A DNA stretch of 64,000 nucleotides from Blattabacterium sp. DPU (GTDB lineage: Bacteria; Bacteroidota; Bacteroidia; Flavobacteriales; Blattabacteriaceae): assembly GCF_011290385.1 (NCBI RefSeq), contig NZ_CP049785.1, positions 200,317 through 264,316 of the forward strand, in the 5' to 3' direction. The notes beneath the pieces are model-generated. The model saw only the letters and a list, made by a program, of their open reading frames with translations. It was not told where the DNA came from and made no database searches. A program made the position numbers and the translations under genes. This document shows positions 4,352 to 61,413 of this stretch, piece after piece (position 1 is the stretch's first letter; the number at the start of each line of letters is the position of its first letter).

Positions 4352-5683
4352 ATGTCATCAATTTTAATTAGATCTATACAATTGTTACTTAGTATTTCTA
4401 TATTAGTTATCATTCATGAATTAGGTCATTTTATTATAGCTCAGATATTTAAAGTTAGAGTGGAAAGATTTTTTCTATTTTTTGACCCTTGGTTTTCTAT
4501 CTTAAAAAAAAAGATAGGACACACTATTTATGGAATCGGTTGGTTGCCTTTAGGAGGATATGTCAAAATATCTGGAATGATAATGGATGATAAAAATATT
4601 TCATCAAAAAATACAATTAATAATTGGGAATTTCGTTCTAAATCAGCAATAAAAAGACTATTAATTATTTCTGGAGGAATATTTTTCAATATATTGTTAT
4701 CTATTTTAATTTTTACTTTTTTATTATTTAAATATGGAGAAACTTATCTTCCTACAAAAAATGTTAAATATGGTATAGAAGTTGATGCTTTAGGAGAAAA
4801 AATAGGACTGAAAAATGGAGATAAAATTTTATTTGTAAACGGAAAATATATTCCCTATTTTAATGACATTCCTAAAGAAATTATTTTGGGAAATTCTATT
4901 ACTGTAGATCGTATGGGGAATATTATAAAATTATCATTAAATAATAACAAAAAAAAATTTTTTTTTGATAGAAAAGAACTGAATTTTTTTATTCAACCTC
5001 GTGTCCCTCCTATAATCAATTATGTAATCAAAAATTCTAAAGCAGAAAAGTATGGATTAAGAAATAATGATGAGATATTAGCCATTAATTCTGAATTTAT
5101 TCTTTTTTCTGATCAATTCAAAGATTTGTTATCAAAATATAAAAATGAAAACATATTAATGTCCATTAATAGAAATGGAAAACTTATTCAAAAAGAAATT
5201 TTTTTAGATTCAAAAGAAGTTTTGGGAATTTATTTAAAAAATTTTATAGATTTAGATCAAATTTTTTTATTTGAAAAAAAGAATTATTCTTTTTTTGAGA
5301 GTATACCACATGGTATAAAAAAAACTTGGAATGTTTTAAAAAATCAAATATTTTTTTTGAAAAATGTTTTTCATATAGAAACTAAAGCTTATAAACAAAT
5401 AGGTAGTTTTTTTTCCATAGCTAAAGAGTTTCCTTCTAAATGGAATTGGGATATTTTTTGGACTTTAACTGCTACATTATCCATTTGGTTAGCTTTTTTA
5501 AATTTATTTCCTATTCCATCATTAGATGGTGGTTATATATTATTTATCATGATAGAAATGATAACAAGAAAAAAAATCAATGAAGAAATAATGGAACGTT
5601 GTACTATTTGCGGATTTATAATAATTAGTTTAATTATGATGTTTATTATTATTTGGGATATTTTCAAAGTTTTTTTTTATTGA
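4352..5683 (+). CDS. rseP: RIP metalloprotease RseP (site-2 protease)
   Basis: Intramembrane zinc metalloprotease of the M50B family, 443 residues. The first membrane helix carries HELGH at 22-26, and the last part has the second active-site motif NLFPIPSLDGG. Between them lie two PDZ-like regions and further helices. In other bacteria RseP cleaves anti-sigma factors and cleared signal peptides. The substrates in this reduced genome are not visible here. The 3' end overlaps the convergent cyclo-ligase gene by 54 bases. Confidence 0.93.
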   Translation: MSSILIRSIQLLLSISILVIIHELGHFIIAQIFKVRVERFFLFFDPWFSILKKKIGHTIYGIGWLPLGGYVKISGMIMDDKNISSKNTINNWEFRSKSAIKRLLIISGGIFFNILLSILIFTFLLFKYGETYLPTKNVKYGIEVDALGEKIGLKNGDKILFVNGKYIPYFNDIPKEIILGNSITVDRMGNIIKLSLNNNKKKFFFDRKELNFFIQPRVPPIINYVIKNSKAEKYGLRNNDEILAINSEFILFSDQFKDLLSKYKNENILMSINRNGKLIQKEIFLDSKEVLGIYLKNFIDLDQIFLFEKKNYSFFESIPHGIKKTWNVLKNQIFFLKNVFHIETKAYKQIGSFFSIAKEFPSKWNWDIFWTLTATLSIWLAFLNLFPIPSLDGGYILFIMIEMITRKKINEEIMERCTICGFIIISLIMMFIIIWDIFKVFFY

Positions 5684-29415: not shown

Positions 29416-30372
29416 ATGGAATATTTAGATTTTGAAAAACCAATACAAGAAATTCAAGATCAGTATATTAACTGTGTATTAATAGAAAAAAAAAGTGGAA
29501 TAAATATGAAAGAGGTTTGCAATCAATTGCAATTTAAATTGGAAGAAACCATAAAAAAATTACACAGTAATCTTACTCCTTGGCAAAGAGTACAATTATC
29601 TAGACATCCAAATAGACCTTATACTTTAGATTATATACATTTCATAACAAAAAAAGGTTCTTTTATAGAATTACATGGAGATCGTCATTTTGGTGACGAT
29701 AAAGCTATTGTAGGAGGATTTGGAAAAATAGAGGATTATACTTTTATGTTAATTGGAACTCAAAAAGGAAAAAATACTAAGGATAGACAGTATAGAAGAT
29801 TTGGGATGCCTAATCCAGAAGGATATAGAAAAGCTTTGCGTCTTATGAAATTAGCAGAAAAATTTGAAAAACCTATTGTTACTTTTATTGACACGCCTGG
29901 AGCTTTTCCTGGAATTGAAGCCGAAGAAAGGGGGCAAGGAGAAGCTATTGGTAAAAATATCTATGAAATGATGTGTTTAAAAGTACCTATTATTGTTTTA
30001 ATTATAGGAGAGGGAGCTAGTGGAGGAGCTTTAGGATTAGGAATAGGAGATAAGATTTCAATGATGGAAAATTCCTGGTTTTCTGTTATTTCTCCTGAAA
30101 GTTGTTCTACAATCCTTTGGGGAAATCGTGAAAATAAAGAAAAATCAGCAGAATCATTGAAATTAACAGCAGAAAATATGTATAAATTAAATCTTGTAGA
30201 TGATGTAATTAAAGAACCTTTAGGAGGAGCTCATTTTTTTCCTGAAAAAGCTTACAAAATTGTAAAAAAACAAATTATTAAACATTATAAACAATTATCT
30301 GAAATTAATATCGAATCTCTTATTGAAGAGAGAAAAAATAAGTATATTTCTATTGGTTTTTTTGATGAATAA
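29416..30372 (+). CDS. accA: Acetyl-CoA carboxylase carboxyltransferase subunit alpha
   Basis: Makes malonyl-CoA together with AccD by moving CO2 from biotin to acetyl-CoA, the first step of fatty-acid synthesis. The 318 residues show the crotonase-like core with [33 protein letters not shown] and [16 protein letters not shown], which hold the oxyanion glycines. Length is standard. The partner subunits are not in the window. It probably belongs to the transcript of sdhCAB or its own, and a small hairpin follows at 30397. Confidence 0.96.
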
Positions 30373-30396
30373 ATTTTTAGCAACTCTATTCTAATT

Positions 30397-30411
30397 AACA
30401 GATTTTCTGTT
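30397..30411 (+). terminator. Small hairpin after accA
   Basis: A perfect 6-bp stem AACAGA/TCTGTT with a 3-nt loop, 25 bases past the accA stop and 35 before dnaB. No U-run follows, so it is at most a weak terminator or a processing site. Confidence 0.25.
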
Positions 30412-30445
30412 TACTTCATCATATCACGTTTATTAAAATGATTTT

Positions 30446-31987
30446 ATGAGTAATATTATACAGGAAAAAACAAAAAAATTTTGTTTTGATTCCATGAAAA
30501 AAAAAGGAAAAATTCCTCCTCAAGCATTAGATTTAGAAGAAGCTATAATAGGGGGAATTATGATTGATAAAAAAGGGTTAGATGAAGTTATTGATATACT
30601 TTTTCCCGAATTTTTTTATAAAAAAGAACATCAAGAAATATTTTTTGCAATACAAAAATTATATCACGATTCTAATCCTATAGATATATACACTGTTTTA
30701 AATGAACTCAAAAGAATAGGAAAACTGGAATCAATAGGAGGAGAATTATATTTGATTGAGTTAACACAAAAAGTTATTTCTTCTGCACATATAGAATATC
30801 ATAGTCGTATCGTAATACAAAAATTTATTTTAAGAAAACTAATTAGTATATTTTCTAATGTTATTCAAGAATGTTATGAGGAAAATACAGATGTTTTTGA
30901 TCTTTTAGATTATGCAGAATCAAAATTATTTGAAATTCATCAAAAATATTTAATAGAAAAAAAATATGAAACAACTCAATCTATAATACAAAAAGCTATC
31001 GATAAAATTAAAAAAACAGAAAAAGAAGGATTAAGTGGAATTTCTTCTGGATTTCATCAGTTGGATCATATTACTTCTGGATGGCAAAATTCTGATTTAA
31101 TTATATTGGCTTCTAGACCTGGAATGGGAAAAACAACTTTTATGTTATCTATGGTAAAAAACATAGTTGTAGATCAAAAAATTCCAATTACAATTTTTTC
31201 ATTAGAAATGTCTTCAATTCAGTTAATTACAAAATTAATCTCATCAGAAACTGGAATTTCTTCAGAAAAAATTAGAAAAGCTAATTTATCTCAATTAGAC
31301 TGGAAACATTTATTACATAAAACAAAAAATTTGAAGAATGTCCCCTTATTGATAGATGATACTCCTTCTTTATCTATATTTAGTTTACGTGCAAAATGTC
31401 GGCGTTTAATATCTCAACATGGAATTAAATTGATATTTATAGATTATATGCAATTAATGGGGATTAATGATCATAATTATAAATTACAAAATAGAGAGCA
31501 AGAGATATCAGTTATTTCTAGAAGTTTAAAATCTATAGCTAAAGAATTAGATATTCCAATTATAGCTTTATCTCAACTATCTAGAGCAGTAGAAACAAGA
31601 GGAGGAAGCAAACGACCTATATTATCTGATTTACGGGAATCAGGAGCTATTGAACAAGATGCAGATATAGTTTTATTTATTTATAGACCTGAATATTATG
31701 GATTTAAAATTTGGGATTCGGATGAAAATAATGATTCTTGTATAGGACAAGCAGAAATTATAATAGCTAAGCATAGAAATGGGGGACTAGATAAATTTCG
31801 TATAAAATTTATAAGTGATCAGGCTAAATTTGCAAATTTAGAAGAAAAAAAAACTATTTCTTTATCTTGTGAAGAAGATTATAAAAAAAATTTTTTTATG
31901 TCTTCTCCTTATAATGATTTCGAAAATTCAGAATATAATAATGAAATCAATTTCAATAACGGAAATTATTTAGATGAAGATATTTAA
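30446..31987 (+). CDS. dnaB: Replicative DNA helicase DnaB
   Basis: Hexameric 5'-3' helicase of the replication fork. The 513 residues have the N-terminal domain from PPQALDLEEAIIGG, and the RecA-like domain with Walker A RPGMGKTTF (Lys229, Thr230), IFIDYMQLM as Walker B, and SQLSRAVETRG and SDLRESGAIEQDAD near the end. There is no intein. Length is typical for Flavobacteriales. The low-complexity Asn-rich C-terminal tail (after about residue 480) is outside the conserved fold. It precedes the permease gene by 15 bases. Confidence 0.96.
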   Translation: MSNIIQEKTKKFCFDSMKKKGKIPPQALDLEEAIIGGIMIDKKGLDEVIDILFPEFFYKKEHQEIFFAIQKLYHDSNPIDIYTVLNELKRIGKLESIGGELYLIELTQKVISSAHIEYHSRIVIQKFILRKLISIFSNVIQECYEENTDVFDLLDYAESKLFEIHQKYLIEKKYETTQSIIQKAIDKIKKTEKEGLSGISSGFHQLDHITSGWQNSDLIILASRPGMGKTTFMLSMVKNIVVDQKIPITIFSLEMSSIQLITKLISSETGISSEKIRKANLSQLDWKHLLHKTKNLKNVPLLIDDTPSLSIFSLRAKCRRLISQHGIKLIFIDYMQLMGINDHNYKLQNREQEISVISRSLKSIAKELDIPIIALSQLSRAVETRGGSKRPILSDLRESGAIEQDADIVLFIYRPEYYGFKIWDSDENNDSCIGQAEIIIAKHRNGGLDKFRIKFISDQAKFANLEEKKTISLSCEEDYKKNFFMSSPYNDFENSEYNNEINFNNGNYLDEDI

Positions 31988-32002: not shown

Positions 32003-33222
32003 TTGAATTTTGAATGGTTTTTTTACAAAAAAACGATTTGGGAGGATTGTAGAAAAAATAAAACTCTTCGTATTATAGTCATAATAACACAAATAACAAT
32101 AATTATTGCTTTAATTATTACGTTTTTAACTTTTTCTATAGGGTTTGGATTTAAAGAAATTATAAAAGAAAAACTATTAAATATAAGAGGACAAATTATA
32201 ATACAAAAAAATACTCTAACAACAAATAATCGTTATTTTTCTGTAACGGAAAAAAATTTGTTACTCAGAAAATTTAGTAAAAAAAATTTAATTCAACAAA
32301 TTCATGGAATTATAGAAAGTGACGTAATTGTTTCTACAAGTAGAAAAATAGATAGATATATATTTAAAGGTTTATATGAAGATTATAATCCTATTTTTTT
32401 TAAGTATTTTTTAATTACTGAAAATTTTTTTCGAAAAAAACTTCTATCTCATAAAAATGTTTTGTTATCTAAAAAAGTATCCTTATCATTAGGATTAAAT
32501 GTTGGTTCCAACATCAGAATTGATTTTATTTCTTTTGATAAAAAAAAAATCCTATTATCATTTCTAAAAAATTTATAATTTCTGGTTTATATGAAACTGG
32601 AATACCAGAATTTGATGATGTATATATTATTGGAAATATAAAATCTATTCAAAAAATTTATGGATATGAAAAAAATTTAGTAGAAAAATTTGAAATTTTT
32701 GTATCCTATGATAATATCAAAAAAAGAATTTTTAATAAAGAATCCAAAGAACTTTTCTTTAATATTAATAATCATGATTTTGTAAAATGGATAAATATTT
32801 TTGACATAAATATTATTGTCATTAGCTTGATTATTTTTGCATCCGTAACCATCAACATGATTGTATTTATTCTGATGCTTCTTTTAGAAAGAATTAAAAC
32901 TATAGGTATTTTAAAAACTTTAGGAGCGAAAAACCAAGTTATACTTAAAATATTTTTATTGTATATCATACAAATATTAATACCTTCATTAATTATAGGA
33001 AATAGTATTGGAATTACTTTATTAGTATTACTAAAAAAATTTCATTTAATATTTTTGAATAAAATACAATATTTTATTGATTTTGTTCCTATTTATATTA
33101 ATATACAACATATTATCATTATCAATTTATCTCTTATTTTTATTTGTTTTATAACAATACTTTTTCCTGCATTATTTTTTATTAAAAAAATTTCTCCTAT
33201 AAAAGTTATAGAATTTGAATAA
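32003..33222 (+). pseudogene. FtsX/LolE-type ABC permease split by a poly(A) frameshift
   Basis: Two frames together make one permease. The first (32003-32578, TTG start) has the N-terminal helix ITQITIIIALIITF and periplasmic segment, then breaks. The second frame continues with KKFIISGLYETGIPEFDD, three further helices and the FtsX-type ERIKTIGILKTLGAKN, and ends at 33222. The break lies at ten A's (32540-32549). With one A more the gene would be an uninterrupted 407-codon frame reading DKKKNPIIIS, the normal length of lipoprotein-release permeases. Either the gene is decaying or RNA polymerase slippage on the A run restores some full protein, as reported in Buchnera and Blochmannia. The ATPase partner is not in the window. 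Confidence 0.85.
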
Positions 33223-33269: not shown

Positions 33270-34664
33270 TTGACACTTGTAAAATCTTCATCTGGAATAA
33301 GAGGAACATTGGGAGGAAAGGTAGGAAAAGGATTTTCTCCCATAGATATCATTCAATTTTCCGCAGGATATGTTTCCTGGATGAAAAAAAAACATAATAA
33401 TAAGAAAAAATTTGTTATAATATTAGGTAGAGATGGAAGAATTTCTTCTGTTTTGTTTCAACAATTTTTAATAATTACTTTTCAAAGTCTTGGTGTAGAT
33501 GTAATCAACATAGGTTTGTCTACTACTCCTACTGTTGGAATTGCTGTAATCAACGAAAGAGCGGATGGAGGAGTTATGTTGACGGCAAGTCACAATCCTA
33601 AAAATTGGAATGGATTAAAAATGTTCAATTCTTATGGAGAATTCTTATCTGAAGAAGATTTTCAAAAATTGTTCTATATAACAGAAAAAAAATATTTTAA
33701 TTTTTCTTCATACAAAAAATTAGGGAATCTTATTTATAAAAAAAATTATATTCAAAAACATATAGAAAAAATTATTTCATTACCTATTATAGATAAAGAT
33801 CTTATCCAGAAGGCGAAATTAAAAGTTGTGGTAGATGGAATTAATTCTACAGGAGGAATAGCGGTCCCTATTTTGTTAAAATATTTGGGAGTTCATGTTA
33901 TTAAAATGTATTGTGATCCTCATGGAGATTTTGCTCATAATCCTGAGCCTATTGAAAAAAATTTAAAAGAAATATGTAAAAAAGTACCGGATTTTAAGGC
34001 CAATTTGGGAATATCTGTAGATCCCGATGTAGATCGTGTAGTGTTTATTTGCGAAAACGGAGATTTTTTTGGAGAAGAATATACCTTAGTGTCTATAGCT
34101 GATTATATATTAGAAAATAAATTAGGGCCTATTGTATCAACTTTGTCTTCTTCTCATGCATTAAAAGATCTATCTATCAAAAAAAAAGTACCATATTATT
34201 CTTCTCCTGTTGGAGAAGTACACGTCGTAAAAAAAATGAAAGAGGTTCATGCTGTTATTGGGGGTGAAGGAAATGGAGGAGTTATTTATCCTAATTTGCG
34301 TTATGGAAGAGATGCATTGATTGGAATTGCATTGTTTTTAACTCAAATAGCTAAACTTGCTAATATACCGTTATCTAAATTAAAAAAAAGATATTCCAAT
34401 TATTTTATGTCGAAAAAAAAAATTCGATTTTTTTCTCATAATAATGACAAAATTAAAATTTTATTAAAAATAATAAAGAAAAAATATAAAGGAGAAAAAA
34501 TGGATTTCAAGGATGGAATTAAAATCTATTTAAAATCTAATGAATGGATCCATATCAGAAAATCAAATACTGAAAATATCATTAGAATACATACAGAAAG
34601 TACTTCAAAGGAAAGAGCTAATTTTTTAGCTAAGAAAATTATATATGAAATAAAAGAATTATGA
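33270..34664 (+). CDS. glmM: Phosphoglucosamine mutase-type phosphohexomutase
   Basis: Interconverts glucosamine-6- and -1-phosphate for UDP-GlcNAc, the substrate of MurA. The 464 residues carry the phosphoserine loop MLTASHNP (Ser107), the metal loop DPDVDRV, the sugar-binding GEGNGG and the C-terminal phosphate site IRIHTESTS. The TTG start at 33270 gives TLVKSSSGIRGTLGGKVG, the usual N terminus of Bacteroidota phosphoglucosamine mutases. Related phosphomannomutase activity cannot be excluded. Its TGA overlaps the rplS ATG by four bases. Confidence 0.88.
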   Translation: MTLVKSSSGIRGTLGGKVGKGFSPIDIIQFSAGYVSWMKKKHNNKKKFVIILGRDGRISSVLFQQFLIITFQSLGVDVINIGLSTTPTVGIAVINERADGGVMLTASHNPKNWNGLKMFNSYGEFLSEEDFQKLFYITEKKYFNFSSYKKLGNLIYKKNYIQKHIEKIISLPIIDKDLIQKAKLKVVVDGINSTGGIAVPILLKYLGVHVIKMYCDPHGDFAHNPEPIEKNLKEICKKVPDFKANLGISVDPDVDRVVFICENGDFFGEEYTLVSIADYILENKLGPIVSTLSSSHALKDLSIKKKVPYYSSPVGEVHVVKKMKEVHAVIGGEGNGGVIYPNLRYGRDALIGIALFLTQIAKLANIPLSKLKKRYSNYFMSKKKIRFFSHNNDKIKILLKIIKKKYKGEKMDFKDGIKIYLKSNEWIHIRKSNTENIIRIHTESTSKERANFLAKKIIYEIKEL

Positions 34665-35071: not shown

Positions 35072-35356
35072 TTATTTATTATTTTTATCGTTTTCTTCAG
35101 TTGTTCCTTTTTCTTTTTCAGTTGTATTGTTATTATTTTCCTCATTATTATTATTGTTTTTTGAGGAGTCCTCACTAGGAGTTGTAGGAGGGGTACTATT
35201 GTTTGAATCGGTCTGATTCTCATTGTTATTAGCTGTTTTTTCCTCTTCTGTTGTAGTAGAGTTATTTTCATTTTTATTTTTGTTGTTGCAACTAATTGTA
35301 AATAAAAATATTGCTAACAAAATTGTAGTGACCGTAATTCTTAATTTTTTCATCAT
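35072..35356 (-). CDS. Small low-complexity lipoprotein, unknown function
   Basis: A 94-residue protein not recognised as any family. Residues 1-22 form a signal peptide (two Lys, then a hydrophobic stretch TTILLAIFLFTIS) ending in a lipobox-like TISC with Cys23, so processing by LspA (encoded at 43.7 kb) is likely. The mature 72 residues hold only Asn, Glu, Thr, Lys, Ser, Asp, Pro, Gln, Gly and one Ala, with no aliphatic or aromatic residue, so they should be disordered and probably face the periplasm or surface. A terminator faces its end, and a -7-like TAAATTTG lies 35 bases upstream. That supports a real gene over a chance frame. Confidence 0.6.
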   Translation of the reverse strand: MMKKLRITVTTILLAIFLFTISCNNKNKNENNSTTTEEEKTANNNENQTDSNNSTPPTTPSEDSSKNNNNNEENNNNTTEKEKGTTEENDKNNK

Positions 35357-60439: not shown

Positions 60440-60515
60440 GGGCAATTAGCTCAGTTTGGTTTAGAGCATCTGTTTTACAAGCAGGGGGTCACTGGTTCAA
60501 ATCCAGTATTGCCCA
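60440..60515 (+). tRNA. tRNA-Val (anticodon TAC)
   Basis: Acceptor GGGCAAT/ATTGCCC, D stem GCTC/GAGC, anticodon stem TCTGT/GCAGG (two wobble pairs) with loop TTTACAA, T stem ACTGG/CCAGT. The last 41 bases are overlapped on the other strand by the 3' end of miaA. CCA is not encoded. Confidence 0.95.
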
Positions 60516-61413
60516 CTATTTTTAATAGAATAAAATTTAATATTTCTTCTTTTTTTTTTGGGTCAAACCATATAATTGATGGATCCTTTTTATACCAAGT
60601 CAATTGTTTTTTAACATACTTTCGGGTATTATTTTTTATTTTTTCTCCTATTTTATTCAAATCCATTTCTCCTTTATGAATAAAATCAAATATTTCTTTA
60701 TATCCTATAGTTTGTAAACTATTTAAATTTCTATAATGATAATAGAGTTTAGCTTCATCTAATAAACCTATTTTCATCATATTATCTACTCTATTATTTA
60801 TTCTATAAAAAATTTTATATTTAGGCATTATTAATCCTATTTTCAATATTATAAAGTTTCTTTTCTTTTTTTTATGAAAAAAAAAAGAAGGATTTTTTCC
60901 TGTAGATAGAACTATTTCTAAATATCGAATTAAACGTCTAGGATTACAAATATCTATTGATTCTCCTGTTTTTTTAAATTTAAAAAATTCTTTTTGTAAA
61001 AAAGAAATTCCATTTTTTTTAAAATGATAAATTAAATAATCTCTAACATTAGGATTTATTTCAGGAAATTCAGATAAGCCTTCTGTTACTGCTTTTTCAT
61101 ATAAACTAGAACCTCCTACCATAATTAATATAGAATATTTAGTAAATAATTTTGATATTTTTTTTAAAGAATCTATTTCAAACAATTTAGCATTATAAGT
61201 ATTATGAATGCTTAAATGTCCAATAAAATGATGAGGAATCTGAGATAGTTCTTCCACAGTAGGTATAGATGTTCCTATTTTTAATTCCTTATAAAATTGT
61301 CTAGAATCACAGGATAAAATTTCAGTTTTTAATTTTTCAGCTAAAAATAAGGAAAGACGTGTTTTTCCCACACAAGTAGGCCCTATGATAAAAATAAGAA
61401 ATTTTTTATTCAA
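60475..61413 (-). CDS. miaA: tRNA dimethylallyltransferase
   Basis: Transfers a dimethylallyl group to A37 of tRNAs that read codons starting with U. The 312 residues include P-loop GPTCVGKT at 11-18, [30 protein letters not shown] and RRLIRYLEI, all family marks. The last 14 or so residues (ending [13 protein letters not shown]) are read from the antisense of tRNA-Val, a sequence type that usually appears only as a false antisense translation. The original stop seems lost, so the tail is probably decorative. Its ATG lies 8 bases inside the end of aroC. Confidence 0.92.

Follow-up and report, generated by a model that had tools for sequence, protein, structure and literature searches.

A one-base frameshift at a ten-A run in a LolC/E-type permease gene of Blattabacterium, probably tolerated through slippage

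A LolC/E-type permease gene of Blattabacterium is broken by a one-base frameshift that is restricted to a single genome; the second half of the gene is still open and constrained, and its partner genes are intact. In that genome tsaC has a lesion of the same kind, as has lolD in related species. On comparison of these sequences, the frameshift at the run of ten A's (A10) is probably real and tolerated through slippage, with the permease still yielding some full-length protein. The window analysed is a stretch of 64,000 nucleotides (200317-264316) of the 623,008 bp genome G000, genus Blattabacterium, and the coordinates of its relevant features are collected in Table 1.

The ten A's reported by the initial annotation at this place are present in the window sequence, and the run does split an FtsX/LolE-type permease with a LolC/E-type match into 182 and 223 codons. 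The upstream ORF follows the family frame for 182 codons; its last 9 codons, past the run, are out of frame and lead to TAA at 32576-32578. Over residues 1-181 the first part is 72% identical to its counterpart in genome G034. Addition of one A would give 406 residues (182 + 1 + 223), exactly as annotated. Conserved sequence beyond the break was equally borne out, as evident from purifying selection on both halves and from a second part that has zero stops and no second frameshift up to the stop codon at 33220-33222, and carries the FtsX-like C-terminal permease domain together with TIGILKTLGAKN.

Table 1. Location of the run, the two parts of the permease gene and the neighbouring genes (window positions)
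Feature	Position	Strand	Basis
Ten-A run, frame lost (-1 against every intact relative)	32540..32549	+	window sequence, relatives' alignment
First part, LolC/E-like permease	32003..32578	+	TTG start, 191-codon ORF, TIGR02212 E 5e-10
Second part, permease family frame	32551..33222	+	223 codons, PF02687, 83% identity to G034
Mechanical TTG ORF, 131 aa, C-terminal membrane domain only	32827..33222	+	ORF list
dnaB (replicative helicase), intact upstream neighbour	30446..31987	+	ORF list; named from sequence
Phosphohexomutase (glmM-like), intact downstream neighbour	33270..34664	+	ORF list; named from sequence

Conservation of both halves, with a complete C-terminal membrane domain in the second, is also what would be seen if the two halves were translated separately and assembled into a split permease. 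This arrangement is extremely improbable, as no ATG, GTG or TTG start occurs in the second frame upstream of 32827, due to which 92 conserved codons would go untranslated, and no relative is so organised. A split into two proteins was ruled out on the lack of a usable start in the second frame. The mechanical TTG ORF is likewise unlikely to be an independent gene, since conserved residues 5' of its start would stay untranslated.

The permease is taken as part of a LolCDE-like transporter on the basis of homology and co-occurrence, and not of a profile cut-off. The LolC/LolE family TIGR02212 is the best family match, and an intact relative matches it over nearly the full length (98.1 bits, E 5e-28); the curated cut-off of 362.45 is, however, reached in no Blattabacterium genome. 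The FtsX-like C-terminal permease domain (PF02687) scores 46.4 bits, above its cut-off of 25.5, and the MacB-like periplasmic core domain (PF12704) in the first half scores 22.4 bits against a cut-off of 27. All 36 permease-bearing genomes have a second permease of the same family and, at a conserved place, a LolD-like gene, whose matches are also under the curated cut-off. The two permeases are together present in 36 and together absent in 13 of the 49 genomes, and the 13 (L031-L043) have only ABC genes of other loci among the matches listed, the LolD-like gene being apparently missing. The system resembles LolCDE in its family match, its FtsX-like domain, its second permease with a LolD-like ATPase and its all-or-none occurrence, and differs from it in the score (98 vs 362 bits) and in having its three genes scattered rather than in one operon. 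In the window genome both partners are open (second permease, G000:C1:99621-100757; lolD, 30361-31020). On the minus strand of the window, at 35072-35356, a short ORF encodes a signal of lipoprotein type, with LFTISC at its end, and then a low-complexity tail rich in N, E, T and K; its product is a possible client of LolCDE.

The permease gene is open in 34 of the 36 genomes that bear it, as a single uninterrupted ORF of ~400-430 codons between dnaB and the phosphohexomutase gene. The one other split copy, in G013, is broken at a different A-run. At the homologous site the nearest relatives read GATAAAAAAGGAAATCCT or similar, with AAAAAAGGAAA in many of them, and their peptide is DKKGNP or DKKRNP, the A's being divided by a G; G064 reads GATAAAAAAAGAAATCCT / AAAAAAAGAAA. 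Since the nearest relatives have this G inside the run, the A10 run and the break are, in the sequences compared, specific to the window genome. Neither the 11 A's nor the DKKKNP peptide that the initial annotation proposed to look for in homologues was found in the 35 relatives. Its statement that the permease needs eleven A's therefore stands as frame arithmetic and not as an ancestral state, and an ancestral A11 was ruled out. The A10 run probably goes back to loss of the G that stands among the A's in relatives, either directly or after this G had mutated to A. By the one-step route, loss of a single G from the G064 form would give exactly A10; by the alternative route, a G to A substitution would be followed by loss of one A.

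Runs of this length are ordinary here, as 18 A/T runs of at least 10 are seen in the window against ~13 expected from dinucleotide composition, and 37 lie well within open ORFs in the 164 kb of the window genome examined. The oddity is the frame, not the A10 run itself. With G034 as reference, the permease break is the sole frame break in 50 assessable genes of the window, and 2 of the 137 genes assessed in the 164 kb are frameshifted. The G034 homologue (L169 ~5190-5650) of the intact window ORF at 60478-61413 looks frameshifted near an A10 run.

These counts bear on the reading in which the run length is an assembly or sequencing error and the gene on the chromosome is intact. Such errors are most frequent at runs of 10-11 A's, and some assemblies of the genus are visibly poorer; that of G066 (L125-L129) includes an N as well as frame breaks at sites other than homopolymers, for which reason its single-gene lesions need care. 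Such an error is nevertheless improbable for the window permease. Because relatives carry a G inside the run, the error would have to remove that G or come in addition to a genuine substitution, and a systematic homopolymer miscall in this assembly is unlikely given the 37 long runs in open ORFs and the low number of broken genes. Moreover, breaks at homologous places of lolD are seen again in separate assemblies, and the Blattabacterium genomes from Periplaneta fuliginosa and P. japonica, which were sequenced elsewhere on the MiSeq, have lolD entered among their pseudogenes (PMC6039017).

Selection on the two halves was estimated with a codon model on 15 taxa, in which the terminal branch of the window genome was tested. 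The 3' half gave an own-branch omega of 0.198 against a background of 0.210, with omega = 1 rejected (2dlnL 21.6), and the 5' half gave 0.117 against 0.189, with omega = 1 again rejected (2dlnL 40.0); the absolute omega and branch values are rough owing to high synonymous divergence. The best estimate of a neutral stretch at the end of the branch is zero. Its 95% limit, a joint bound summed from the profiles of the two halves, is ~0.06 neutral codon substitutions, equal to a few percent of a branch of ~1-2. Signs of an eroded pseudogene (added stops, frameshifts, relaxed selection) were absent in the window permease. Purifying selection on both halves implies that the permease is either rescued or was broken very recently, and restriction of the break to one genome means that it may be very recent. 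The suggestion that the product is still needed or the break very young is hence upheld in so far as both fit the selection data, while need cannot be assumed for a gene that is dispensable in the genus and absent from 13 of the 49 genomes.

A very young loss of function would involve a real frameshift, no full-length protein and a decay too new to show, being the start of a loss that 13 genomes have completed. These 13 have neither Lol permease and apparently no lolD, and only 68-572 bp with no recognisable remnant are left between the dnaB and glmM matches, dnaB being found at the same place in every one of them and the phosphohexomutase matched in 49/49 genomes. The privacy of the lesion is also consistent with it, as is the room that the data leave for a neutral tail amounting to a few percent of the branch. 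It is unlikely all the same, and the evidence against it comes from other Lol genes and from tsaC.

A frameshifted member is found in 11 of the 36 Lol systems, mostly at A or T runs: lolC/E in G000 and G013, the second permease in G026 and G066, and lolD in G030, G066, G012, G060, G021, G065, G023 and G068. The other Lol members stay open; G066, whose assembly is poorer, is the one genome in which lolD and the second permease are both broken. Among the 36 genomes, none of the Lol genes was seen partway through decay. Frameshifts in 11 of 36 systems with none visibly eroded favour rescue; under a very young loss, ~11 of 36 systems would have to be caught just after breaking and none in mid-decay, the same coincidence each time. 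Most of the lesions are -1, and that of G021 is +1 in comparison with its neighbours. A -1 lesion would be put right by one added base in the RNA, and insertion is the direction that predominates among transcription errors at A/T runs of Buchnera (PMC5574713). In that study no transcription error that restored a frame was found, so rescue is not to be assumed.

In lolD, an A9 run, one base short, is common to G030, G066, G012, G060, G071 and G006 (L055-L058, L063, L064). The six species form a clade with SH-aLRT 99, and independent proteins set four of them apart from G026 (88/91). By parsimony, the lesion predates the split of the six species. It is uncompensated in G030, G066 and G012, is accompanied by an extra base upstream in G006 and G060, and by two further downstream losses in G071. 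In the three uncompensated genes the ABC signature and the Walker B and switch motifs are retained 3' of the break. For the uncompensated lineages, omega past the break is 0.11-0.16, with omega = 1 rejected in a test that masked the part carrying the second G060 frameshift; the values are slightly above background, so rescue may be partial. Between G030 and G066, 10 of the codon differences in lolD are synonymous and 9 are nonsynonymous, as compared to a neutral expectation of ~4 nonsynonymous to 1 (P 0.002). The simplest course of events would be a single ancestral loss, after which the frameshifted gene would still have been useful, and two different repairs at the DNA level; recurrent independent loss at a hotspot is the alternative. 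Presence of the A9 lesion across a six-species clade, uncompensated in three, favours rescue, and a very young loss in the window genome leaves unexplained a lesion that on parsimony is older than the split. Two more lolD sites are broken in more than one species, one at a long T run (L058, L059) and the other at a long A run (L060, L061, L062).

The pseudogene list of the two Periplaneta symbionts (PMC6039017) concerns the same genus and transporter, and also includes metG, gltX, atpG and dnaN; a number of the entries are normally essential genes, which is what tolerance of such frameshifts would lead one to expect. In contrast to the reading given here, that work calls the genes pseudogenes, and the searched portion of its text mentions no lesion, rescue mechanism, frame or homopolymer. 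The lolC/E genes are missing from the pseudogene list as given there.

The single tsaC/Sua5 (YrdC) gene of the window genome (G000:C1:526998-527533, L130) is split by a -1 frameshift at an A11 run (527217-527227), which is interrupted in relatives. The family (PF01300) is present in 49/49 genomes, the one of 511 kb included, and the gene is apparently indispensable. Own-branch omega is 0.09 and 0.17 for its two halves, with omega = 1 rejected. In G009, tsaC is likewise split near the same place, beside a run of ~15 A's. The same kind of -1 lesion in a sole, constrained tsaC that every genome has kept favours rescue through slippage, and is left unexplained by a very young loss.

These observations suggest that the broken genes are still read, probably through slippage of RNA polymerase on the runs. 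While copying the run, the polymerase would sometimes add one A, bringing the two halves back into one frame, and a fraction of the transcripts would then encode the whole permease. The ribosome could bring about the same by slipping -1 on A_AAA_AAA, and may play a part: a slippery heptamer of the form X_XXY_YYZ lies in frame as A_AAA_AAA in the permease run and as A_AAA_AAG in the broken lolD of G030 and G066, and ribosomal slippage on either, as an alternative to that of the polymerase, would act in the same direction. A structured (programmed) ribosomal frameshift site was not supported, because the 81 nt 3' of the permease run contain no unusual fold that could serve as a stimulatory structure (z = -1.0 against shuffles).

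Rescue by slippage in other insect endosymbionts, invoked in the initial annotation, is on record for Buchnera and Blochmannia. As related in passages of PMC3017870 and PMC3971599, Tamas et al. (2008) described frameshifts in poly(A) tracts rescued by transcriptional slippage, and Wernegreen et al. (2010) ancient frameshifts kept by selection. According to these passages, the likeness includes an AT-rich insect endosymbiont, a single indel, an A run of ~9-11 and two halves that are open and constrained; some of the frameshifts are common to several species, erfK and ytfM have independent frameshifts or reversion, and essential genes (dnaX, dnaG, pth) are hit too. For genes of this sort, PMC3017870 quotes a figure of ~30% full-length transcripts. 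The window permease agrees in having its indel (-1) in an A/T run of at least ~9, namely A10, and in both parts being otherwise open and constrained. As for retention across strains or species, its A10 break is private to one of the 36 genomes. Blattabacterium further differs in belonging to another phylum (Bacteroidota), in being studied here at the level of the DNA sequence, and in the repeated hits on LolCDE across the genus.

A wider reading, in which the genus depends on repair of the frame after transcription, by slips of polymerase or ribosome, with LolCDE, tsaC and other genes frameshifted for whole host radiations, is conceivable and is put forward tentatively. With similar reserve, selection may keep both halves of such genes, a second indel may sometimes restore the frame in the DNA, and the lolD lesion may be an ancient one that six species inherited and some have yet to repair. 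Since rescue through slippage is already known from Buchnera and Blochmannia, the repeated hits on one transporter across Blattabacterium are the part worth following. If transcription repairs the frames of Blattabacterium genes, the phenomenon would reach the Bacteroidota and a genus of which dozens of species have been sequenced, and in which repeated hits on a transporter and compensating indels make the balance of decay and rescue testable. Such genes are routinely labelled pseudogenes, which distorts the inventories of what reduced symbionts are able to do.
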